NCBI GenBank assembly: GCA_009840005.1
Contig: VXOR01000011.1
Coordinates: 1-6,476 of the forward strand
Reading direction: 5' to 3'
DNA length: 6,476 nucleotides
Source: Gemmatimonadota bacterium
GTDB taxonomy: Bacteria; Latescibacterota; UBA2968; UBA8231
Made by a program: the position numbers and the translations under genes. Of the stretch, positions 1-6,476 are shown piece after piece (position 1 is the stretch's first letter; every line of letters begins with the position of its first letter). The notes beneath the pieces are model-generated. The model made no database searches. It was not told where the DNA came from and was given only the letters and a program-made list of their open reading frames with translations.

Positions 1-90
1 GGGGGTTGGGGCCGGCGGAGGGGCAGGGGGAACGCTCGCGTCTTTGCCGCAGGCGACTAGCCCTAGCAAAATTAGTGCCCTAAGCCCCAT
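1..90 (-). CDS. N-terminus of a second lipoprotein, possibly MbnH-like di-haem peroxidase (truncated)
   Basis: Reading leftwards from an ATG at 90-88 there are 30 open codons running off the window edge. The peptide starts MGLRALILLGLVACGKD: a short basic n-region, a hydrophobic core and the lipobox LVAC with the lipidated Cys at residue 14. A proline-rich linker (PPAPPPAPTP) follows, typical of a tether between a lipid anchor and a periplasmic domain. GGA lies about 10 bases upstream of the start, and the gene begins only 10 bp after the stop of the MbnP-like gene, so the two are almost certainly co-transcribed. No catalytic domain is visible. The identity is inferred from neighbourhood: MbnP-family genes are commonly followed by a di-haem cytochrome c peroxidase (MbnH) that modifies MbnP. 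The lipoprotein start is well supported; the peroxidase call is not shown by sequence. Confidence 0.6.
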   Translation of the reverse strand, partial: MGLRALILLGLVACGKDASVPPAPPPAPTP

Positions 91-100
91 GGATTATTCC

Positions 101-895
101 TCATATGTGTTCGTCGTGATCTTGCGCTGCACGGTCTTGTTCGACTTCCTCTTCCCCGTGGCCTTGGCCGATGTGGTCGGGGTGCCCGATTGGCCCTAGG
201 GAAAAGACCGTAGCGCCGTTGCCTTGCAAGGTCAACTGCGCGTCGGCGTTGCCCATGATTCCGCCGCGACCGTTAAAATCGTATAGCGATGGCGCGTCGT
301 ACCACTCGTTGAGATCCATCACCACGGCGATTGCCCACTCATCTCCGCTTACTGTTAGGGAAAGTGGCAGAGAGACGGCAAACGAAAAGTCTTCCCCTCC
401 TGCCGGCCCGGTATGTGTGAGAAAGGCTCCTTCGCCGTCGTCGGTGTGGAAGAGGCCCTCCAGGCGCATGTAGTGGTAACCGCCGCCCATGGGAGCCGGC
501 CATGCCATGTTGTTGAAGTGATCGACGCTCGGCAGTGCGCCGGTTTCGTTTTTAGCGCTGTCGATGCCAAAGGTAAAGTGCAAAGTAGCGTATTCGCCAC
601 CGGGCACCTTGGCCGAAATACTGCGAGTCGCGCCCACAAAAGCGTTGCGGTAGTGGAATTCGGCCAGTTCGACGCGCTTGCCCCCAGCCGTCTCCAAGGC
701 GATATCCGAGACGATGTACTCTAGGCGAGTGACGCCGTATTCGTTGCCCGCGGCGTTGGTGTAGAGTATCTCCTCGTGTTTGAGATCGGCACCGGCGACA
801 GTGTGGTTGAAATAGATGGTCACCTCGCCTTGGTCGTCATCCGAGTCGCCGCAGGCTAGCAAAAAGCAATATGCGGCCAATAGGAGATATTTCAT
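101..895 (-). CDS. MbnP-like copper-protein-family lipoprotein
   Basis: A 264-residue exported lipoprotein. Residues 1-15 form a lipoprotein signal with lipobox LLAC (Cys15), followed by an acidic Asp-rich linker. The rest matches the MbnP-like family: an early FNHTVAG beta-strand, LEYIVSDIAL near 58-67, VPGGEYATLHFTFGID near 97-112, then MAWPAP and GYHYMRLEG near 130-147, and LPLSLTVSG further on. In characterised MbnP, a periplasmic copper-binding protein, a conserved Trp is oxidised to kynurenine by the partner MbnH. Trp132 in the MAW motif is the likely counterpart, though the usual second Trp after it is replaced (WPAP). The C-terminal 28 residues are rich in His, Asp and Glu, suggesting extra metal binding (inference). 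AAGGAG six bases before the ATG at 895 supports the start. The gene diverges from the histidine kinase and leads into the truncated lipoprotein gene. Metal specificity cannot be read from the sequence. Confidence 0.85.
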   Translation of the reverse strand: MKYLLLAAYCFLLACGDSDDDQGEVTIYFNHTVAGADLKHEEILYTNAAGNEYGVTRLEYIVSDIALETAGGKRVELAEFHYRNAFVGATRSISAKVPGGEYATLHFTFGIDSAKNETGALPSVDHFNNMAWPAPMGGGYHYMRLEGLFHTDDGEGAFLTHTGPAGGEDFSFAVSLPLSLTVSGDEWAIAVVMDLNEWYDAPSLYDFNGRGGIMGNADAQLTLQGNGATVFSLGPIGHPDHIGQGHGEEEVEQDRAAQDHDEHI

Positions 896-936
896 GGGGT
901 ACTCCTTTTGCTAAAGAACGAGAACCACGGCTCGGC

Positions 937-965
937 TTGTTCGTCTTTTTTTAAGACGGTACATT
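937..965 (+). promoter_or_regulatory. Weak sigma-70-like promoter candidate with a dyad in its spacer
   Basis: The 80-bp gap between the divergent MbnP-like and kinase genes holds TTGTTC (937-942) and TACATT (960-965), separated by exactly 17 bases. Each hexamer matches consensus only partly (3 of 6 and 4 of 6). The spacer contains an inverted repeat, CGTCTT (942-947) and AAGACG (953-958), around five T residues. This position would suit a repressor or activator binding site controlling one or both divergent transcripts. If this promoter is real, transcription would begin almost at the ATG at 976. Weak evidence overall. Confidence 0.25.
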
Positions 966-975
966 ACCAAATAGG

Positions 976-2466
976 ATGCGTCAATTTGTCGAGTCTGTCC
1001 AAATGACCAGGGGCAAGCCCGCCCCCAGCGAGCGTCCGCGGACGCGGATCGGCCACAAGCTGATTTTGAGCTTCGTACTGCTGGTCATGGTCGTTGTGGG
1101 GTTATCGGGTTGGGTGCTCTTTGAACTGACGGACCGCAGCTTGGAGCGGCAGATGCGCGACCATCTCGTATCAGTTGCCGCTCTGGTGAGTACGAAGCTG
1201 TCCGGCAGCGTGTTGCCCTATTTGCACGAGGGCCGCGAGCACTCCACTCTCTATCGGAACCTAGTGCTTAGATTACAGCGCGCCGAACAAGGGGTTGGTG
1301 CCCGTCACATCTTCGTCTTCGACCGCGAGTACCGCTCGCTGCTCGACACCGATGGCCTAATGCCCATTGGCCGCGAGTACCCCAAACTGCTCTTCCACCG
1401 CCGGGAGCTAGAGCGGGTTTGGAGGGGCCATACCGCGCATTCAGTGCTTTTTTACGACGGCGATATCCCGTACATGACGGGCTACGCCCCGATTTTTCAC
1501 GACGGTGAGGTCGTCGCGGCCGTTGGGGTTGAAATCGGGGCTGGGTTTGTGGATTCCATCCGCGTCTTTGGGCGGTCGGTGCTGATCTTTGCCGGGGTGG
1601 GAGCGTTGCTCACCGTCGGAGTGGCGTGGGGGTTGGCGCGGACGCTGACGCGGCCCATCCAAAAGTTGGTCGAGGCCGCGCGCGAAATCGGCCGGGGCAA
1701 CATGAACCAAGAGGTGGCTACTGCGTCCGACGACGAAATCGGCTATTTGGGCGAGACTATGGAGGAGATGCGGCGCAAGCTGGTCGCCCGCGACGCCCAA
1801 CTGCGCCTCATGCTGGGCGGCGTTGCCCACGAAATTCGCAACCCGCTGAGCAGCATTGATCTGTATGCCGGTCTGATCGCCGGCGACTTGCCCGCCAGCG
1901 ACGAGCGCAAGCAACACATTGAGAAGGTCATTGAGGAAGTGCGTCGGCTCAATGGCGTAATATCTGAATTTCTCGAATTTGCCCGCCCGGCACCGGCGCA
2001 GCCGCAGCCGACCGAGCTGGCTCCGCTCGTGGCCAACGCGGCCTTTTTACTGGCCCCGGAAATGCAGGCTGCCGGCATTAGCTATGAGGAGCGCGTCGCG
2101 CCGGATTTGGCGTGCTACATCGACGCCGAACAGATGGAGCGGGCGCTAGTCAACCTGATGAAGAATGCCGTGCAAGCCATGCGCGATGGCGGGCACTTGA
2201 CGGTGCGAGCTACAGTCGCAGACGAGGAGGTCGTCGTCGAGGTGGCCGACGATGGCTTGGGTATGTCGGCGGAGGTGCAGGCGCGCCTTTTTGAGCCTTT
2301 CTTTACTACCAAAGAGAAGGGATCGGGTTTGGGGATGGCGCTGGTGGCGCGGGCGGTTGAGGAAAACCGCGGCCGGATCGAAATAGACAGTCGGCAAGGC
2401 GCAGGCACGGTGTGCCGCCTGCGCCTACCGCAGTCCAAAGATGGGGTACTATGGGCAGGATTCTGA
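976..2466 (+). CDS. Membrane sensor histidine kinase
   Basis: A 496-residue inner-membrane kinase expected to autophosphorylate and pass phosphate to the response regulator encoded next. Membrane segments lie at about 29-49 and 200-221, enclosing a roughly 150-residue periplasmic sensor region. That region ends in a Cache/PAS-like strand pattern (YAPIFHDGEVVAAVGVEIG). A HAMP linker follows (RTLTRPIQ, about 222-275), then the H-box VAHEIRNPLSS with phospho-acceptor His285, the N-box with Asn397 (LMKNAVQAM), the G1 box DDGLGM (425-430) and the G2 box GSGLGM (449-454). All catalytic boxes are intact. There is no cytoplasmic PAS domain, so the layout resembles ZraS/AtoS-type kinases paired with NtrC-like regulators. 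The signal is unknown; metal or envelope stress is a guess from the MbnP-like neighbour. No good Shine-Dalgarno precedes either the ATG at 976 or the in-frame ATG at 1003, so the exact start is uncertain. The gene overlaps the regulator gene by 16 bp. Confidence 0.93.
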   Translation: MRQFVESVQMTRGKPAPSERPRTRIGHKLILSFVLLVMVVVGLSGWVLFELTDRSLERQMRDHLVSVAALVSTKLSGSVLPYLHEGREHSTLYRNLVLRLQRAEQGVGARHIFVFDREYRSLLDTDGLMPIGREYPKLLFHRRELERVWRGHTAHSVLFYDGDIPYMTGYAPIFHDGEVVAAVGVEIGAGFVDSIRVFGRSVLIFAGVGALLTVGVAWGLARTLTRPIQKLVEAAREIGRGNMNQEVATASDDEIGYLGETMEEMRRKLVARDAQLRLMLGGVAHEIRNPLSSIDLYAGLIAGDLPASDERKQHIEKVIEEVRRLNGVISEFLEFARPAPAQPQPTELAPLVANAAFLLAPEMQAAGISYEERVAPDLACYIDAEQMERALVNLMKNAVQAMRDGGHLTVRATVADEEVVVEVADDGLGMSAEVQARLFEPFFTTKEKGSGLGMALVARAVEENRGRIEIDSRQGAGTVCRLRLPQSKDGVLWAGF

Positions 2467-3911
2467 TTATCGACGACAACAAAAGCCTCGGCGACGGACT
2501 GGTGCTGAGCTTGAACAAGATGGGGCACCAAGCCGTTGCCGCAAGCAGTGGTCGCGAAGGTTTGGCACGGATGAAGGACGAGCCGTTTGACTTGGTCATT
2601 ACGGATTACCGCATGGAGGAGATGGACGGCTTGGCGGTGATGGAGGCGGTACAGCGCCAAGCACCAGACACCGACGTGATGATGATGACGGCCTACGACA
2701 CCCGGGAGTTGGCTGTAGAGGCGATGGAGCGGGGGGCGATCGACTTTATTGTCAAACCCTTCCTGCCCGACGAACTGTGGCTGAAGGTCAATAAGCGGCT
2801 CGATTATCGAACCAAGCTGCAGGAAGCTCAAGCCAAGCTGCAGGAAGCCCAAACCCTCCGCCAAGAAGCCGAGGCCAAGCTGCGGGACTGGGAGCACTTA
2901 TTCGAGCAAAACCGCTACCTGCGCGAAGAAATCGACAGCCGCTACAACTTCGGCGAGATCGTCGGCCAATCGCCGCAGATCAAGGCCGTGCGCGAGCAAG
3001 TGCGCAAGGTGGCGTCGTCGTCGTCGTCAGTGCTGATCTACGGCGAAAGCGGCACTGGCAAGGAGCTGGTTGCCCGCGCCATCCACTACCAGAGCCGCCG
3101 CAGCAAGGGGCCGTTCGTCAAGGTCAACTGCGGTGCCCTGCCGACGGGGTTGGTCGAAAGCGAATTGTTTGGGCACGAGCGAGGGGCCTTTACCAGCGCG
3201 GTGCGGAGCAAGAAGGGCAAATTTGAACTGGCCGAAGGGGGGACGATTTTTTTAGACGAGATCGGCGATATACCTTTGGAGACTCAAGTGCGGCTGTTGC
3301 GGGTGTTGCAGGAAAAGCAGTTCGACCGCGTGGGCGGCGAGCAGCCGCTCGACGTAGATGCGCGGGTGGTAGGGGCTACCAACCGGCCGCTCAAGCGCAT
3401 GGTCAAAGAGGGCACCTTCCGCGAAGATCTGTTCTATCGGCTGGAGGTCATCCCCCTCACCTTGCCGCCGCTGCGGGAGCGGCGAGAGGACATTGAATTA
3501 TTGGTGAAACACTTTAGGCAAAAAAAATGTGGGGAAATGAACATCTCCCCCAAGCGTCTAACCGAAGAAGCCCTAGCCGGCTTGAAAAGCTACCCGTGGC
3601 CCGGCAATGTGCGCGAACTGGAAAACGTCATCGAGCGCACGATGGTGTTGGTGGATGGCGAGGAAATCGGCTATCACGATCTGCCGCTGACTTTTGACGA
3701 GGGGACTGCGAAGGAAGAGACTACTGAGGCGAGGGCGGAGGCTACAGATGACGGTGTGCTGCTACTCAACGAGCGCCTCGACGAGGTGGAGCGCGACCTA
3801 ATCGCTCGGGCGATGGAGGAAGCACATCACGTTAAGACGAAGGCCGCTTCGCTTTTGGGGATTAAGACGAGTGCTTTGTACTACAAGCTCGACAAATACG
3901 GTCTAGATTAG
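2451..3911 (+). CDS. NtrC-family sigma-54-dependent response regulator (GAFTSA variant)
   Basis: A 486-residue cytoplasmic activator with three domains. The receiver (about 1-115) has acidic Asp8/Asp9, phospho-acceptor Asp52, Thr80 and Lys102. A coiled linker of three heptads (122-142) leads to the AAA+ domain (about 168-400), which has Walker A GESGTGKE (198-205), Walker B IFLDE (Asp269/Glu270), an arginine-finger region REDLFYRLEV and sensor II GNVRELEN. A Fis-type helix-turn-helix closes the protein (KAASLLGIKTSALYYKLDKYGL). The sigma-54-contacting loop reads GAFTSA (245-250) instead of GAFTGA. Family members bind enhancers upstream of sigma-54 promoters and use ATP to open the complex. 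The ATG at 2451 is preferred over an in-frame GTG at 2412: the receiver fold begins directly with GRILIIDD, and GGGG sits about seven bases upstream. The 16-bp overlap with the kinase gene indicates translational coupling and a cognate pair. Its target promoter is unproven; one sigma-54 promoter lies at 5865 in this window. Confidence 0.94.
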   Translation: MGRILIIDDNKSLGDGLVLSLNKMGHQAVAASSGREGLARMKDEPFDLVITDYRMEEMDGLAVMEAVQRQAPDTDVMMMTAYDTRELAVEAMERGAIDFIVKPFLPDELWLKVNKRLDYRTKLQEAQAKLQEAQTLRQEAEAKLRDWEHLFEQNRYLREEIDSRYNFGEIVGQSPQIKAVREQVRKVASSSSSVLIYGESGTGKELVARAIHYQSRRSKGPFVKVNCGALPTGLVESELFGHERGAFTSAVRSKKGKFELAEGGTIFLDEIGDIPLETQVRLLRVLQEKQFDRVGGEQPLDVDARVVGATNRPLKRMVKEGTFREDLFYRLEVIPLTLPPLRERREDIELLVKHFRQKKCGEMNISPKRLTEEALAGLKSYPWPGNVRELENVIERTMVLVDGEEIGYHDLPLTFDEGTAKEETTEARAEATDDGVLLLNERLDEVERDLIARAMEEAHHVKTKAASLLGIKTSALYYKLDKYGLD

Positions 3912-3913
3912 CG

Positions 3914-4804
3914 ATGAGAAATCCATCCATTCTGTTGTTGGTTTTGGGGTTGGCGCTGCCTGGAGCTGCGCCTGGAGATACAGGTAGGTTGGGCGACCTA
4001 AAGGCCCAGTATCGCGCCTTGGAAAGCCAGCGCGATTCCCTCGCCAGCCAGCGCTTGCAGGTTGCGGCCTCAGCCGAGGCACTGTCGGCCCGCATCGATA
4101 GCCTGAAGCTGAGTGCAGCGAATTCTGCCGTGCTGCGAGAAGCACTGCGCTCCTCGCTCCGGTTGGTGCAGCAGATGGTTGCGCTCGACTGGAAGTTGGT
4201 CGCCTTAGAGGCGCGTCAGGATAGCGTGGCCGAGCGCTTGTGTTTGGCCTACGATTGGGAAATTGGCGTCCTCATTCAGAAGTTGGCCGAGCAACCAGAC
4301 CTGGGCTTGTCGGCTCAACTGACGCTCTATCAGGATTCGCGGGAACTACTCGGGGTCGGGGTCGGCAGTGCGAACCTGCACTACAGCGGACAGATGAAAA
4401 TTGAGGTGGATGATGGGCCGGACGAAATTCAGCAAAAGCAAGAGCTATTAGAGGACATCGCCGACCGCCTCAAGGCCGAATGGAGTGCCAATGCCGACTT
4501 GATACGCCGCTTGGAGGACGAGTATCGGCTATGTACCCAGGTGGAACAGAAGCGGGCTAAAGCGCGGCGGCCCGAGGAGCGGGTTTTGGTGAGCGGAGAA
4601 CAGCCGCGTGAGCAGGTGCGGTTACTCAGGCAAGACGAGTCCTTGGCCGAATTTGATCTCGAATCGTCGATTGCCGAAGTGGCGCTGAAAATTCACAAGC
4701 TGAAGGCGCGCCAGCAGGAAATCCTCCAATTACAGGCCGTGATCGAAGACCGTGCCGAGGCGTTCAGGCGCTACTTGCGCAGCATGTTAGAGGGCGAGGA
4801 ATAG
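3914..4804 (+). CDS. Secreted coiled-coil protein of unknown function, third gene of the two-component operon
   Basis: I do not recognise this 296-residue protein. It starts with a signal-peptide-like segment: Arg2, a hydrophobic core ILLLVLGLAL, then PGAAPGD with likely cleavage near residue 21. Most of the rest is predicted helix rich in Glu, Gln, Arg, Ala and Leu. One coiled-coil block covers about 23-120 (DLKAQYRALESQRDSLASQR...) and another about 170-290. They are separated by a less helical stretch near 133-160 (LLGVGVGSANLHYSGQMKIEV). No membrane segment follows the signal, so it is probably periplasmic. It begins two bases after the regulator's stop with no clear Shine-Dalgarno, implying translational coupling. 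Its place in the operon suggests an accessory or output protein of the signalling system, loosely comparable to periplasmic partners of metal or envelope-stress systems; that comparison is positional only. The CDS is certain, the function unknown. Confidence 0.85.
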   Translation: MRNPSILLLVLGLALPGAAPGDTGRLGDLKAQYRALESQRDSLASQRLQVAASAEALSARIDSLKLSAANSAVLREALRSSLRLVQQMVALDWKLVALEARQDSVAERLCLAYDWEIGVLIQKLAEQPDLGLSAQLTLYQDSRELLGVGVGSANLHYSGQMKIEVDDGPDEIQQKQELLEDIADRLKAEWSANADLIRRLEDEYRLCTQVEQKRAKARRPEERVLVSGEQPREQVRLLRQDESLAEFDLESSIAEVALKIHKLKARQQEILQLQAVIEDRAEAFRRYLRSMLEGEE

Positions 4805-4818
4805 CCCGCACTTTTGCC

Positions 4819-4838
4819 GGCGAGGAGCTTCACTCGCC
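4819..4838. terminator. Weak hairpin between convergent genes
   Basis: GGCGAG (4819-4824) and CTCGCC (4833-4838) form a 6-bp stem with an 8-base loop. It lies between the convergent ends of the coiled-coil gene and speD and overlaps the speD stop. There is no proper U-run on either side, so a terminator role is tentative. Confidence 0.25.
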
Positions 4839-5186
4839 CGCGCCCAATCCTCGGCTGACTTCCACTACATTGTCTTGCGTCGCGCCGAAGGCGCAGCGGA
4901 GCCGTTGATAGGCTGCCCACGGGTCGGTCTGGTGGCCGCAGGTGAACAGATCGAGGGCGGCGTAACCGCGCTCGGGCCAAGTGTGGACGGCCAAGTGGCT
5001 CTCTTGGACGATGAGCACGCCGGTGACACCCCCTGGACTGAAGCGATGGAATGCCGCGCCCAAGACGCGGGTGCCGGCCGCTTGGGCGGCGGCCTGCAGC
5101 TCGGCGGTGATATAGTCTGGGTCGTCGAGCCGCTCGCGGTTGCAGCCATAGAGATCGACGAGCAGATGGCGGCCTAGGGCCTGCAT
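4830..5186 (-). CDS. speD: S-adenosylmethionine decarboxylase proenzyme (prokaryotic class)
   Basis: A 118-residue cytoplasmic enzyme of polyamine synthesis. It decarboxylates S-adenosylmethionine to give the aminopropyl donor for spermidine. The protein is made as a proenzyme that cuts itself between Glu62 and Ser63, turning Ser63 into the pyruvoyl cofactor. The cleavage and catalytic motif QESHLAVHTWPE is intact (Ser63, His68), as is Cys83 in FTCG, and the N-terminus MQALGRHLLVDLYGC is typical. Counting from the ATG at 5186 puts these residues at the positions known for the short Thermotoga-type enzyme (63, 68, 83), which argues for this start over an in-frame TTG at 5210. No convincing Shine-Dalgarno lies just before the ATG. 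The gene follows the small helix-turn-helix gene by 39 bp on the same strand and is probably co-transcribed. No aminopropyltransferase gene is visible in the window. Confidence 0.94.
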   Translation of the reverse strand: MQALGRHLLVDLYGCNRERLDDPDYITAELQAAAQAAGTRVLGAAFHRFSPGGVTGVLIVQESHLAVHTWPERGYAALDLFTCGHQTDPWAAYQRLRCAFGATQDNVVEVSRGLGAGE

Positions 5187-5225
5187 TGGAACGCGCCGGA
5201 GCGGTGGCAAAGTGCAGACAGCTTC

Positions 5226-5414
5226 TCAGACATATTCGACGATGTCGGTGGGCAGGCACTTGAGGTCTCGGCAGATATTGGACAGGGTGTACGGATCCAT
5301 GTCCTCGGTGCCTTGGTCAATGGCCTTTTTGATGTGCTGATAGGTGGTCAGGTTGATTTCGGGTTTGCGCTCTTCGAGCATCTGTTCGATCGCTTCTTTC
5401 TTAAAGCGGATCAT
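5226..5414 (-). CDS. Small Cro/C1-type helix-turn-helix protein upstream of speD
   Basis: A 62-residue protein starting MIRFKKEAIEQMLEERK and ending LKCLPTDIVEYV. The length and both ends match the compact HTH_26/Cro-C1-type DNA-binding family, whose members commonly end in a P-x-D-[IL]-[LVI]-E-Y motif. The central helices (TYQHIKKAIDQGTEDMDPYTLSNICRDL) keep the hydrophobic spacing but lack the typical SYNTISRL recognition helix, so DNA binding is likely but not certain. The start at 5414 is fixed by an AGGAGGT site immediately upstream (5418-5424). A longer reading from a TTG at 5489 would run through a palindrome and lacks such a site. A TTGACG hexamer (5468-5473, minus strand) could be a -35 element, but no good -10 partner is seen. 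By position it may autoregulate itself and speD; that is inference. Confidence 0.8.
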   Translation of the reverse strand: MIRFKKEAIEQMLEERKPEINLTTYQHIKKAIDQGTEDMDPYTLSNICRDLKCLPTDIVEYV

Positions 5415-5417
5415 GCG

Positions 5418-5424
5418 ACCTCCT
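5418..5424 (-). promoter_or_regulatory. Ribosome binding site of the small HTH gene
   Basis: The minus strand reads AGGAGGT three bases before the ATG at 5414, within a longer GAGGAGG run. It decides the start of the 62-residue protein against the upstream TTG at 5489. Confidence 0.8.
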
Positions 5425-5474
5425 CGTTTGCGGGTGGGGTAATTAAGTAAGGTCAGGCTGCTGCTGCCGTCAAA

Positions 5475-5501
5475 GTAGGGCGGTTTCAAACCGCCCCCTA
5501 C
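5475..5501. repeat. Near-perfect palindromic element
   Basis: Left arm GTAGGGCGGTTT (5475-5486), one central C, right arm AAACCGCCCCCTAC (5488-5501). The arms pair fully except for two extra C residues in the right arm. The element directly abuts the stop codon of the permease-like tail at 5501-5503. Its form suits a dispersed intergenic REP-like repeat; as RNA it could also act as a stable 3' hairpin. Copy number elsewhere cannot be seen from this window. Confidence 0.65.
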
Positions 5502-5548
5502 TATTCGTAGCGCAGGGCGTCTATGGAATCGCCCGGCACGTTGGGTGC
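5501..5548 (-). pseudogene. Possible C-terminal tail of an FtsX/MacB-type ABC permease
   Basis: Reading leftwards, the minus strand encodes NVPGDSIDALRYE followed by a TAG stop at 5503-5501. FtsX/MacB-type permeases characteristically end in a short motif such as LDPIEALRYE, so this looks like the last dozen codons of such a gene. Upstream (rightwards) the frame stays open to about 5773 but encodes low-complexity Arg/Pro/Phe sequence over repeats, not the expected membrane helices. The gene body is therefore missing. The match is short, so the identification is tentative. It backs onto the Fis-type remnant on the other strand. Confidence 0.4.
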
Positions 5549-5551
5549 TAG

Positions 5552-5641
5552 GGCGTGCGTGGGGCGGCGTTGTTGGGTATGCACCCGGAGAAGCTGCGTT
5601 ACCGCATGCAGAAATACGGGTTGCGCCGCCCGAAGTCGTAG
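5552..5641 (+). pseudogene. Remnant of a Fis-type HTH, C-terminus of an NtrC-like activator
   Basis: The plus strand encodes GVRGAA followed by LLGMHPEKLRYRMQKYGL and RRPKS, then a TAG at 5639-5641. This is the recognition half of a Fis-type helix-turn-helix, closely parallel to the intact regulator's LLGIKTSALYYKLDKYGL in this same window. In frame just upstream, TAG at 5549-5551 interrupts what would be the Gly-Gly-Asn turn before the second helix (VGC, stop, GVR). Neither an AAA+ domain nor the first HTH helix precedes it. I read it as the last piece of a decayed sigma-54 activator gene. It lies about 220 bp before a sigma-54 promoter, so it may have been that promoter's own regulator (inference). 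An internal ATG at 5579 could in principle give a 20-residue peptide, but no Shine-Dalgarno supports it. Confidence 0.65.
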
Positions 5642-5681
5642 CACTGGACCTAGGCGACCACCGGCCAATGCAAGTGGTGGT

Positions 5682-5744
5682 GGTCCACGAAAAATTCGTG
5701 TAGGTCCACGAAAAATCCGTGGAAATCCACGAAAAAATCGTGGA
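5682..5744. repeat. Three 21-bp tandem dyads with phased A-tracts
   Basis: TCCACGA begins at 5684, 5705 and 5726, a period of exactly 21 bp, and each copy is followed by an A-tract and an inverted TCGTG or CCGTGG arm. Typical units are TCCACGAAAAATCCGTGGA and TCCACGAAAAAATCGTGGA. Each is a dyad, and 21 bp is two helical turns, so sites and A-tracts fall on one face of the helix. The array lies roughly 150-210 bp upstream of the predicted start of the sigma-54 promoter, the usual place for activator enhancer sites. That role is inference; the repeat itself is plain. Confidence 0.85.
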
Positions 5745-5748
5745 CCCC

Positions 5749-5773
5749 GTGCGCCGACGGCGCGGCGGCGCAC
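5749..5773. repeat. GC-rich inverted repeat
   Basis: GTGCGCCG (5749-5756) and CGGCGCAC (5766-5773) form a perfect 8-bp stem around a 9-base loop. It immediately follows the 21-bp dyad array. No U-run follows, so it is not a classical terminator; its role is unknown. Confidence 0.6.
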
Positions 5774-5815
5774 CGCAGTAGTGCGCGTCTCATAATTTTA
5801 AGTATCATATTTTTC

Positions 5816-5847
5816 AATCCTTTAGGTGCATCCTAAAGGATTTTTTT
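5816..5847 (+). terminator. Rho-independent terminator upstream of the sigma-54 promoter
   Basis: AATCCTTTAGG (5816-5826) and CCTAAAGGATT (5832-5842) form a perfect 11-bp stem with loop TGCAT, running directly into seven T residues (5841-5847). No intact gene ends just upstream. It is probably the old terminator of the decayed activator gene, and it now insulates the peptide promoter, which starts 18 bp further on, from read-through. TTTCAA-N4-TTA at 5812-5824 also fits an IHF site with one mismatch, but it overlaps the stem and is weak. Confidence 0.9.
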
Positions 5848-5864
5848 GTGCATGGTCTGCTTTT

Positions 5865-5880
5865 TGGCACGGAATTTGCC
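5865..5880 (+). promoter_or_regulatory. Sigma-54 (RpoN) promoter
   Basis: TGGCACG (5865-5871), four bases, TTGC (5876-5879). The -24 GG (5866-5867) and -12 GC (5878-5879) are separated by the canonical 10 bases, and the surrounding bases match the RpoN consensus TGGCACG-N4-TTGC. Transcription would start near 5891 and read the mini-ORF and the Cys-rich peptide gene. Such promoters need an ATP-dependent activator bound upstream; the 21-bp dyads are candidate sites. It was identified by eye, but the match is essentially complete. Confidence 0.88.
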
Positions 5881-5916
5881 CACATATCAGTGGAAGGCGA
5901 GGCCGATGCGGAAGAA

Positions 5917-5925
5917 AGGAGGTGA
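5917..5925 (+). promoter_or_regulatory. Very strong Shine-Dalgarno before the mini-ORF
   Basis: AGGAGGTGA is a near-complete complement of the 16S rRNA 3' end, with GGAGG seven bases before the ATG at 5930. It selects 5930 over the in-frame ATG at 5906, although the upstream ATG is also open and would read through the site (MRKKGGEV). Confidence 0.85.
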
Positions 5926-5929
5926 GGTG

Positions 5930-5977
5930 ATGCGAACTCGTATCGGCGTTGCTCAACACTCACTTCCAGTATCGTAG
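5930..5977 (+). CDS. 15-residue leader peptide (mini-ORF)
   Basis: The first open frame on the sigma-54 transcript encodes MRTRIGVAQHSLPVS and stops at TAG 5975-5977. It has the strongest ribosome site in the window but encodes too little for a domain and matches no family I know. An in-frame ATG at 5906 would add eight residues. Its last four codons form the left arm of the stem-loop at 5966-6002, and its stop lies inside that structure. Ribosomes translating it would therefore open the stem just ahead of the next gene's ribosome site. A regulatory leader role for the Cys-rich peptide gene is inferred from this layout; a small functional peptide is the alternative. Confidence 0.55.
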   Translation: MRTRIGVAQHSLPVS

Positions 5978-6002
5978 CGACATCGGGTCGCGGCGGTACT
6001 GG
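5966..6002 (+). promoter_or_regulatory. Two-tier RNA stem-loop between mini-ORF and peptide gene
   Basis: Outer stem CCAGTA (5966-5971) with TACTGG (5997-6002), a symmetric 5x5 internal loop, inner stem GCGAC (5977-5981) with GTCGC (5987-5991), and loop ATCGG. It contains the mini-ORF stop codon and ends seven bases before the AGGAG (6010-6014) that serves the peptide gene. It could tune translation or transcript stability; no U-run follows, so it is not a simple terminator. Confidence 0.6.
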
Positions 6003-6022
6003 GCAACTTAGGAGACAAGGCG

Positions 6023-6304
6023 ATGAATAGTTTGCGTGAGTTTTTCGTTTCGTCGAGTGGTTTGGCTCCAGTTCGGCAGGGCTTGGGCTTGGGGTGGGTC
6101 ATCAGTGCGCTTACGTGGGTGGCGATCCTGATCGGTGGTAAGGAAGCTGCTGCTTGCAACAGCTCTTGGGGAGAGTTCGGTGGGTATAGCTCAGGTTGTG
6201 CTAATGACCCGAATAATTCGAGTGGGGATTGCAAATGCAGGACGTGTTCATCGGATTCAAACTGTGAATCCGCATGCTCTCATTGGTACTGCTGCGTTTG
6301 CTAA
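6023..6304 (+). CDS. Secreted cysteine-rich peptide precursor under sigma-54 control
   Basis: I do not recognise this 93-residue protein. Residues 1-19 are polar with one late Arg, 20-37 form a hydrophobic core (LGWVISALTWVAILI), and GGKEAAA precedes Cys45, giving an Ala-x-Ala site for signal peptidase I between 44 and 45. The remaining 49 residues carry 10 cysteines (45, 59, 70, 72, 75, 81, 85, 90, 91, 93) and end in WYCCVC, enough for five disulfides or for thioether/metal chemistry. Ser-Ser pairs recur at 47, 56, 66 and 76, about every 10 residues. AGGAG (6010-6014), eight bases upstream, supports the ATG at 6023. Base composition looks more AT-rich than in the neighbouring genes. The gene sits alone behind the sigma-54 promoter and leader, with no intact modifying enzyme or exporter nearby. 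Possible roles are a toxin or bacteriocin-like peptide, a signal, or a metal-binding secreted peptide. The gene is well supported, the function open. Confidence 0.75.
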   Translation: MNSLREFFVSSSGLAPVRQGLGLGWVISALTWVAILIGGKEAAACNSSWGEFGGYSSGCANDPNNSSGDCKCRTCSSDSNCESACSHWYCCVC

Positions 6305-6344
6305 TAGGTTGAAACCCACTTCGGAATCGCCAAGCAGCTTTTTC

Positions 6345-6367
6345 ACCCATTATGGGGTGTAATGGGT
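6345..6367 (+). repeat. Hairpin 1 downstream of the peptide gene
   Basis: ACCCATTA (6345-6352) and TAATGGGT (6360-6367) form a perfect 8-bp stem with a 7-base loop, 40 bases after the peptide stop codon. GC-rich sequence follows, so it is more likely a 3' stabilising structure than a terminator. Confidence 0.55.
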
Positions 6368-6372
6368 CGGGG

Positions 6373-6391
6373 TTAAACCACACGGGTTTAA
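6373..6391 (+). repeat. Hairpin 2 downstream of the peptide gene
   Basis: TTAAACC (6373-6379) and GGTTTAA (6385-6391) form a 7-bp stem with a 5-base loop. It lies between hairpin 1 and the terminator-like hairpin. Confidence 0.5.
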
Positions 6392-6392
6392 G

Positions 6393-6414
6393 CAACCCCA
6401 GGGGTTGTTTGTTT
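6393..6414 (+). terminator. Terminator-like hairpin ending the peptide transcript
   Basis: CAACCCC (6393-6399), A, GGGGTTG (6401-6407), followed by TTTGTTT. Allowing a realistic loop, the stem is about 5 bp and GC-rich, and the T-rich tract suits Rho-independent termination of the sigma-54 transcript. Confidence 0.55.
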
Positions 6415-6476
6415 AAGGGACATGTGGGGGGGGGAAGGAAATTTTTTGGGGGGATGGGGGGGGTGAGAAAAGATCT
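6415..6476. other. G-homopolymer-rich end with no gene
   Basis: This stretch holds runs of 9, 6 and 8 consecutive G residues and one of six T residues, with no coding signal. It resembles low-quality sequence at the end of a contig or read more than a biological element. Confidence 0.6.

Follow-up and report, generated by a model that had tools for sequence, protein, structure and literature searches.

What kind of product is encoded behind an apparent sigma-54 (RpoN) promoter near the end of a bacterial contig, and how might it be switched on? The question is raised by a 6,476-nucleotide (nt) stretch of Gemmatimonadota bacterium DNA (GenBank assembly GCA_009840005.1, contig VXOR01000011.1, positions 1 to 6,476), here called the window, whose last part carries an open reading frame (ORF) for a small Cys-rich protein. 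An original prediction, made from the letters of the window, had described this part as a self-contained module. Comparison with related genomes leads us to a reading to which we give a probability of about 0.66: the ORF would encode a disulfide-rich protein, exported by Sec to the outside of the cell and belonging to a diversifying family, with expression gated by sigma-54, with an activator of the LRYR helix class acting in trans and an upstream hairpin serving as the gate. This reading draws on sequence comparison, in which the family and its split into leader and core, the recurrence of a hairpin-promoter cassette and its fixed spacing, the agreement between upstream dyads and activator helices, an operon in relatives and selection on the core could all be discerned.

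Results

A family of apparently secreted Cys-rich proteins

The peptide gene comprises the following parts.

6023-6304, + strand: peptide ORF, 93 amino acids, with 10 Cys within the final 49 residues
6010-6014, + strand: Shine-Dalgarno (SD) sequence of the peptide ORF, AGGAG
6023-6154, + strand: conserved N-terminal leader, residues 1-44, with a 22-residue n-region, a hydrophobic stretch and A-x-A before the first Cys
6155-6304, + strand: presumed mature product, a Cys-rich core of 49 residues that include 10 Cys, together with the stop codon

A database search with the 93-residue protein returned 76 matching proteins at E <= 10, 75 of them below 1e-6. The protein, for which the original prediction knew of no described family, thus belongs to a real one, and it has neither a Pfam match (E <= 0.1) nor an NCBIfam match (E <= 0.5). 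Aligned with 34 of its 76 matches (n = 35), it shows near-invariant residues 1-44, followed by a remainder that varies strongly in both sequence and length and in which three Cys columns are invariant throughout the alignment. The subfamily of the window protein (A2, 33 sequences) keeps six Cys columns (C45, C59, C75, C81, C85 and C90), with A44 invariant next to C45; a second group (A5, 27 sequences) likewise keeps six, at a spacing unlike that of A2. Cys spacing, whose conservation in homologues had been proposed as a check, is therefore kept within subfamilies. No Pfam match was found at E <= 1 for five stand-alone relatives or for any of the 27 A5 members, a sequence search of the Protein Data Bank (PDB) with the window protein gave nothing better than E 0.4, and no family relatives were present in IMG/VR, a search for viral origin that did not cover plasmid and phage record collections.

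The leader has the features of a Sec/signal peptidase I (SPase I) signal, namely an n-region, a hydrophobic stretch, and A42 and A44 conserved at 90% or more, as judged on the alignment by the usual rule for such signals rather than with a signal-peptide program. Its one predicted helix, at residues 24-43, lies in a low-confidence part of the structure model. The secreted-type precursor with 10 Cys in 49 residues that had been claimed is thus confirmed in sequence: 93 residues, an export-type leader and a Cys-rich core. Such a precursor would be exported by Sec and cleaved by an SPase I-type enzyme to release an extracellular protein of ~49 residues, probably rich in disulfides. The family is, judging by its sequences, one of unnamed, apparently secreted bacterial Cys-rich mini-proteins, in which the export tag is near-constant and the exported part variable.

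A sister family (L155 3510-6929 and P0198-P0317; 180 proteins at E <= 0.01) combines a leader akin to the present one (EFATSSSGHVEPRQGLALGWLGS) with a variable Cys-rich core of its own. Its operon stands behind the same kind of cassette and holds genes for two thioredoxin-like proteins and an A24 peptidase, as well as a weak FMN_bind match. The A24 gene prompted us to consider prepilin-type processing of the leader, which we do not favour: A42-x-A44 is kept ahead of the Cys, and the Glu that marks prepilins is not seen where it would be expected. The constant leader and variable core, together with the thioredoxin-like, FMN_bind and A24-peptidase genes of the sister operon, would also suit a ribosomally synthesized and post-translationally modified peptide (RiPP), the precursor being a substrate of leader-recognising enzymes; against this, the 19 neighbour proteins scanned with Pfam included no RiPP-type modifying enzyme, and neither the hydrophobic segment nor the A-x-A site of the leader is out of the ordinary. 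We regard modification of this kind as very improbable.

The family is narrowly distributed. When a single genome of each species was scanned, 15 loci emerged, and 14 belong to metagenome-assembled genomes (MAGs) labelled Latescibacterota, Latescibacteria or Gemmatimonadetes/Gemmatimonadota, and the genomes with the last two labels belong to the same class as the Latescibacteria genome. We took the remaining locus, from Phycisphaeraceae (L015), and its genome (G007, E 0.009) for chance matches and left them out. Within the class, 6 of 47 genomes contain the family, with 19, 7, 3, 2, 2 and 2 matches, and the other 41 contain none; the matches include some longer proteins and some stop-containing copies. 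The names of these MAGs suggest that they come from sponges. One study describes Latescibacterota from sponges and reports 425 unnamed short peptides from them (PMC12993501), among which there may be members of the present family.

Purifying selection in the window and diversification among paralogues

The nearest locus, L001 from a Candidatus Latescibacterota MAG, is syntenic with the window, matching positions 1-5526 at 91.5% identity and 5559-6307 at 85%. Between these closest orthologues the proportions of nonsynonymous (pN) and synonymous (pS) differences are 0.076 and 0.383 in the leader, and 0.051 and 0.353 in the core. Since pN is far below pS in both parts, the whole ORF, including the core, is under purifying selection as a protein.

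Some paralogues, among 17 genes compared as 136 pairs, behave differently. At L141 the leader has pS 0.027 and pN 0, against pS 0.315 and pN 0.245 in the core; at L167 the corresponding values are 0.03 and 0, and 0.185 and 0.283. The core of one gene pair has 10.5 nonsynonymous and 0.5 synonymous changes. Near-identical leader DNA next to divergent cores suggests that recombination homogenises the 5' block. Diversification is nevertheless a property of some paralogues, not established for all, because the pair formed by the window and L001 lacks this pattern.

A recurrent hairpin-promoter cassette

Upstream of the peptide gene lie two elements that recur together in related genomes.

5816-5847, + strand: intrinsic-terminator-like hairpin, 11-bp stem at 5816-5842 and T7 run at 5841-5847, ending 17 nt before the RpoN -24 element
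5865-5879, + strand: RpoN (sigma-54) -24/-12 element TGGCACGGAATTTGC, 0 mismatches

The hairpin folds better than shuffled sequences (z -4.72). The RpoN site by itself is not significant, as the window contains 3 sites with <= 2 mismatches where 2.9 are expected. Many further RpoN-like sites occur in the related genomes. A pattern search that tolerated 3 mismatches found the hairpin at 52 places, in 8 of the 47 genomes of the class and 8 of the 64 of the phylum; the reversed pattern, used as a control, did not occur in these genomes. An RpoN site follows 47 of 52 distinct hairpin copies (the window included, one identical repeat left out), and in 46 of the 47 RpoN-bearing cassettes exactly 17 nt, of variable sequence, separate the T run from the TGG (spacing was measured in 51 copies with wide flanks, one place without an RpoN site being left out). 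The near-consensus RpoN promoter of the original prediction is thus supported by its place behind the hairpin. It has GG at -24, GC at -12 and the correct spacing, all kept at the corresponding positions of relatives, as expected of a sigma-54 promoter, and an RpoN gene is found in seven of eight related genomes.

The nine pairs of the hairpin are formed in 99% of cells of the alignment, a figure to be read with the search pattern in mind, which itself favours paired stems. The outermost pair is seen as UA, GC, AU and CG, and all 15 one-sided changes are G-U wobbles; an RNA hairpin therefore fits better than a DNA palindrome. With its GC-containing stem, T run and pairing kept by compensatory or wobble change, the element looks like an intrinsic terminator. 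The perfect terminator that had been claimed is accordingly present as a structure, and termination in vivo is its predicted role.

By the leader test, a member of the peptide family lies behind 13 of 51 cassettes, and these 13 keep promoter, leader RNA and peptide start; in one case the peptide copy has an internal stop. Other cassettes stand in front of genes for secreted PD40-type propeller proteins, of activator genes and of genes of other kinds. The proposal that the elements form one unit therefore stands as far as their recurring order is concerned, but the cassette is not dedicated to the peptide. Its distribution indicates that it is a recurrent, regulon-wide switch driving the peptide and other genes.

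Upstream dyads match the activator helix

Two further features precede the hairpin.

5684-5744, no strand assigned: upstream activator sequence (UAS), where the activator presumably binds, made up of three CCACG/CGTG(G) dyads phased at exactly 21 nt
5552-5641, + strand: Fis (helix-turn-helix, HTH) remnant of a sigma-54 activator gene, ending in ALLGMHPEKLRYRMQKYGLRRPKS and a stop, recognised by its helix motif; the remainder of the activator is missing in the window

The phased dyads in enhancer position were described correctly: the TCCACGAAAAA(N)TCGTGG repeats, with starts at 5684, 5705 and 5726, follow one another every 21 nt exactly, and 21 nt is also the commonest spacing in relatives for two of three dyad types. 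Among 47 cassettes the dyads are of the CCACG/CGTGG type in 18, the CGTAT/ATACG type in 17 and the TTGTTCAA type in 9, with 3 unassigned or cut off. When these 47 cassettes were examined for a recognisable Fis helix within 700 nt, the dyad class agreed with the helix class in all 20 that had one, for classes drawn up after inspection of the data: LRSR with CGTAT (9), LRYR..KYGL with CCACG (8) and LRY.MRKYG(I/V) with TTGTTCAA (3). Two or three classes coexist in single genomes (G001, G004, G005 and G035), each with its own match. Such agreement between upstream dyads and the DNA-binding domain of the activator is what an enhancer-binding protein would produce. The Fis remnant of the window, whose motif ends 179 nt before the hairpin, is of class LRYR and so matches the CCACG dyads, and its DNA matches the same stretch beside other cassettes. 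In 13 of 51 copies the hairpin is preceded, at a distance of 122-287 nt, by the end of an ORF with an AAA+ Walker motif.

Three of the activators were scanned with Pfam. Two long ones have Reg_prop repeats and the Sigma54_activat AAA+ domain over the cut-offs, Y_Y_Y below its cut-off, and HTH_8 at 27.2 bits in one (over the cut-off of 22) and 17.4 in the other (below it), and no kinase domain; the third, a short protein, has AAA+ and Fis only. Relatives of the activator are numerous (6,842 at E <= 1e-20 among 7,991 scored), and the 120 matches listed have Reg_prop and sigma-54 domains, part of them HTH_8 as well. A literature search on Reg_prop with sigma-54 or RpoN turned up no paper that, judged from the listings, describes such regulators.

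Sigma-54 promoters of the NtrC/NifA type are served from upstream activator sites, and the present promoter resembles them in its -24/-12 element, phased upstream dyads and AAA+/Fis activator; HU/IHF-type proteins occur in all eight related genomes. It differs in the terminator-like hairpin 17 nt before -24 and in the use of three dyad/helix pairings on one design, and the long activators scanned have a Reg_prop propeller in place of a receiver. Hybrid two-component systems and Reg_prop sensors of Bacteroidetes likewise use the propeller as sensor (with the Y_Y_Y match here below cut-off); in the present proteins the propeller is instead fused directly to a sigma-54 AAA+ domain and a Fis end.

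The window also contains, at 976-3911, a complete pair of histidine kinase and NtrC-type response regulator (976-2466 and 2412-3911), syntenic in L001. Being a complete sigma-54 activator conserved beside the orthologous cassette, this regulator could be thought to serve the promoter. Its Fis helix (TSALYYKLDKYG), however, is unlike the class that accompanies CCACG dyads in all 8 cases, and it is to this CCACG-paired class that the remnant next to the UAS belongs. At other cassettes, both of the long neighbouring activators that were scanned carry a propeller, not a receiver. We consider activation by the window's own pair quite improbable, and disfavour it chiefly because the helix differs. 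Since the window keeps only the Fis end of an LRYR activator and its complete regulator has a different helix, our best guess is that the activator acts on the promoter in trans. The description of the module as self-contained fails on this reduction of the activator to a remnant, as well as on the presence of the cassette before other genes.

A structured leader RNA displays an SD-like element

Between promoter and peptide ORF the transcript would contain the following.

5902-5947, + strand: leader RNA stem-loop A, with the SD-like AAAGGAGG (5915-5922) in its loop, from fold and consensus
5965-6003, + strand: leader RNA stem-loop B, from fold and consensus
5930-5977, + strand: mini-ORF MRTRIGVAQHSLPVS followed by a stop, with ATG at 5930 and an in-frame ATG at 5906, not conserved as an ORF

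The two-tier stem-loop noticed originally was upheld by its folding (z -4.31) and by a consensus fold from 13 leaders, in which 3 of the 20 pairs show two-sided change; an Rfam scan gave no match at gathering score. The sequence AAAGGAGGTGA at 5915-5925 is complementary to the 16S rRNA 3' end CACCTCCTTT, itself found in five of eight related genomes, and the SD-like element is present in 13 of 13 leaders by the pattern used, in 10 of them as exact AAAGGAGG. Of the claimed mini-ORF with a near-full anti-SD match, the complementarity thus holds, and the reading frame does not. A start codon at normal spacing (4-11 nt) after the element occurs in 4 of the 13 leaders and is absent in 9, a 5-base length difference shifts the frame between copies, and the frame runs into the main ORF in some copies and stops in others. 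Because the frame is not kept between leaders, the conserved thing looks like RNA rather than peptide, and we rejected the mini-ORF as a conserved coding leader. A translated regulatory upstream ORF (uORF), acting as an attenuator for the peptide, would agree with the perfect anti-SD match, with the structured leader, and with the presence, in 12 of 13 leaders, of an ATG or GTG located 9 or 14 nt upstream of the element, which in 10 leaders opens M[RK]K(K/R)GG (one by GTG); given the starts and frames just described, such an attenuator seems improbable to us.

An SD-like sequence ~100 nt before the true start is also known from the STAB-SD of cry3A mRNA, which, according to PMC4113751, can pair with 16S rRNA without needing to start translation and, in Bacillus, blocks the nuclease RNase J. 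The element described here differs from the account given there in being displayed in a conserved stem-loop. Action as a STAB-SD via RNase J is weakened, because RNase J scored over the cut-off in none of the eight related genomes. The loop may serve ribosome standby, coupling or stability. Some cassettes of the TTGTTCAA class in L077, L087 and L098 (= L140, L159 and L163) have a stretch GATGCGG...AGGAGG..CCGCA, seen by eye, which could display an SD-like loop as in the peptide leaders.

A partner gene with a type IX-like tail follows the peptide gene in relatives

In 13 of 17 peptide copies a partner gene starts 54-153 nt after the stop; it encodes 537-750 residues (some cut by the contig end) and the protein opens with a DFDDGTTQGW-type sequence. 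A further partner gene lies ~260 nt downstream in L002 10001. Of the 13 relatives with the adjacent partner, 12 have a strong hairpin and T-rich tail between it and the peptide stop (as seen without a shuffle control). The L001 partner has FG-GAP repeats, a FlgD_ig domain and the type IX secretion (T9SS) sorting domain TIGR04183 (27.9 bits against a cut-off of 23), and SprA, the type IX translocon, is present in all eight related genomes; by sorting domain and translocon together, the partner has the marks of type IX cargo. In one natural fusion (L156 4732-5715) a leader of the same kind, three tandem Cys-rich units and a FlgD-type tail form a single protein, for which Pfam at E <= 1 returned tail families and a weak DUF2271 match only. 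The fusion suggests that the Cys-rich unit works outside the cell.

Two larger arrangements were seen. At L012 2893-14839 an apparent cascade runs from activator and cassette to a second activator, cassette, peptide and partner, and then to a further peptide and partner. In an island of G001 (L099-L101, chromosome 485-545 kb) peptide genes, some with stop codons, alternate with genes for ~720-residue partner proteins, accompanied by a weak FMN_bind match, an A24 peptidase, a transglutaminase, GT2 and DUF4159.

What the core does outside the cell was approached through structure and neighbourhood. Models of two core types reached a mean predicted local distance difference test (pLDDT) score of 63.9 and 68.7, the second with blocks at 87-91 and a beta-alpha-beta-beta order. 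Its weak, non-significant fold matches include three laterosporulin bacteriocins, level with monellin and cystatin entries. The likeness to these Cys-rich bacteriocins is one of length and rough strand order, and the title of PDB 4ozk calls laterosporulin leaderless, whereas the peptide here has a leader. Conotoxins are peptide families with a conserved leader and a hypervariable core, and the present multigene family is like them in its near-constant signal region and variable Cys-rich mature part; it differs in being bacterial, in its sigma-54-type promoter and in forming operons, in relatives, with type IX-like cargo, and no shared sequence was shown.

Two views of the core were weighed. 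It may be a secreted antimicrobial or toxin-like (defensin-like) peptide, variable through an arms race, with the FG-GAP partner as adhesin or carrier. We consider this possible but rather unlikely: monellin and cystatin entries score as well as the bacteriocins in fold matches that are not significant, purifying selection acts on the core of the window itself, the lists of neighbouring ORFs showed no recognisable immunity-like gene (no systematic search was made), and the fusion to a surface-type tail suits a displayed domain at least as well. Alternatively, the core may be a binding or structural domain of the cell surface, such as an adhesin or glycan-binding head, working with the FG-GAP, type IX-tailed partner. 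This is plausible, at somewhat less than even odds. It would agree with the partner <= 160 nt downstream in 13 of 17 copies, with the three Cys-rich repeats fused to the same kind of tail and with SprA in all eight related genomes, and Reg_prop sensors are typical of polysaccharide-responsive regulators; the stand-alone peptides, on the other hand, would be without sorting tail or anchor after cleavage, and binding is itself a prediction.

The end of the window and its other genes

The last predicted element stands after the peptide gene.

6345-6401, + strand: tandem 3' hairpins downstream of the peptide stop, folding no more stably than shuffled sequences (z -1.05)

The hairpins exist, yet they are not above chance, lie outside the match to L001 and are unrelated to the strong hairpin that precedes the partner in relatives; we dropped them as a special feature. 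The last ~56 nt (6421-6476) are G-rich, of low complexity and without counterpart in L001, possibly a poor contig end. By analogy with its relatives the window's peptide would also have a partner gene.

Elsewhere in the window, an MbnP-domain protein is encoded at 101-895 (- strand; E 1.4e-25); in L001 (2957-3862, - strand) a CCP_MauG di-haem peroxidase gene adjoins its orthologue. An S-adenosylmethionine decarboxylase gene (4830-5210, - strand; E 1.9e-38) lies between the two-component pair and the module.

Discussion

We propose that a one-component activator with Reg_prop propeller, AAA+ and Fis parts, of the LRYR-helix class and supplied in trans, binds the three 21-nt-phased CCACG dyads and, once bound, would open the promoter at 5865-5879. 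The hairpin at 5816-5847 would stop transcripts arriving from upstream, so that the gene would be silent without the activator. In the transcript, the structured leader RNA with its displayed SD-like loop may tune translation or mRNA life. In relatives the peptide gene is the first of an operon, and the second gene encodes the FG-GAP protein with a type IX-like C-terminal tail. Once exported, the product probably serves as a variable domain that binds to, or acts as an effector on, a host or competitors.

Besides the bias of the hairpin pattern and the late definition of the dyad and helix classes, several observations weigh against this proposal. As to the cassette, an RpoN site is absent behind 5 of the 52 hairpins, one of the eight related genomes (G006) gave no RpoN match, and the number of hairpin pairs with two-sided change (2) was equalled in 57 of 500 shuffles. 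The base-exact spacing is unexplained by a terminator role, and the hairpin may instead bend or bind DNA. The promoter that was expected before homologues is found, as a strict RpoN match <= 330 nt upstream, in 11 of 20 leader-bearing copies and is absent in 9, three of which belong to the sister family. An LRYR activator exists in the window only as the Fis remnant; an intact one (L151) is known from the nearest relative, G002. As to the product, some family copies contain stops, the two core models have no significant fold match in the PDB, the Pfam tail models Por_Secre_tail and CHU_C stay below their cut-offs in the L001 partner (type IX tail 15.3 against 27 bits), and no partner gene is visible in the 172 nt that the window has after the peptide stop, where a contig fault and a real difference may each be the cause and are indistinguishable.

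A wider picture can be sketched, doubtful as it still seems to us, of a variable arsenal of extracellular disulfide-rich proteins. A constant promoter-terminator-leader block, homogenised by recombination, would be joined to changing cores that pair with type IX cargo, and three non-overlapping channels of propeller sensor and dyad would choose the sets to be expressed, possibly in answer to host glycans.

With its terminator-like hairpin set at a constant distance from a sigma-54 promoter, and with its three matched pairs of helix and dyad, the cassette resembles a natural switch that is both leak-proof and orthogonal. For an uncultured phylum, a diversifying and apparently secreted family under such a shared, strict on-switch may offer a handle on the dealings of these bacteria with their host or neighbours.

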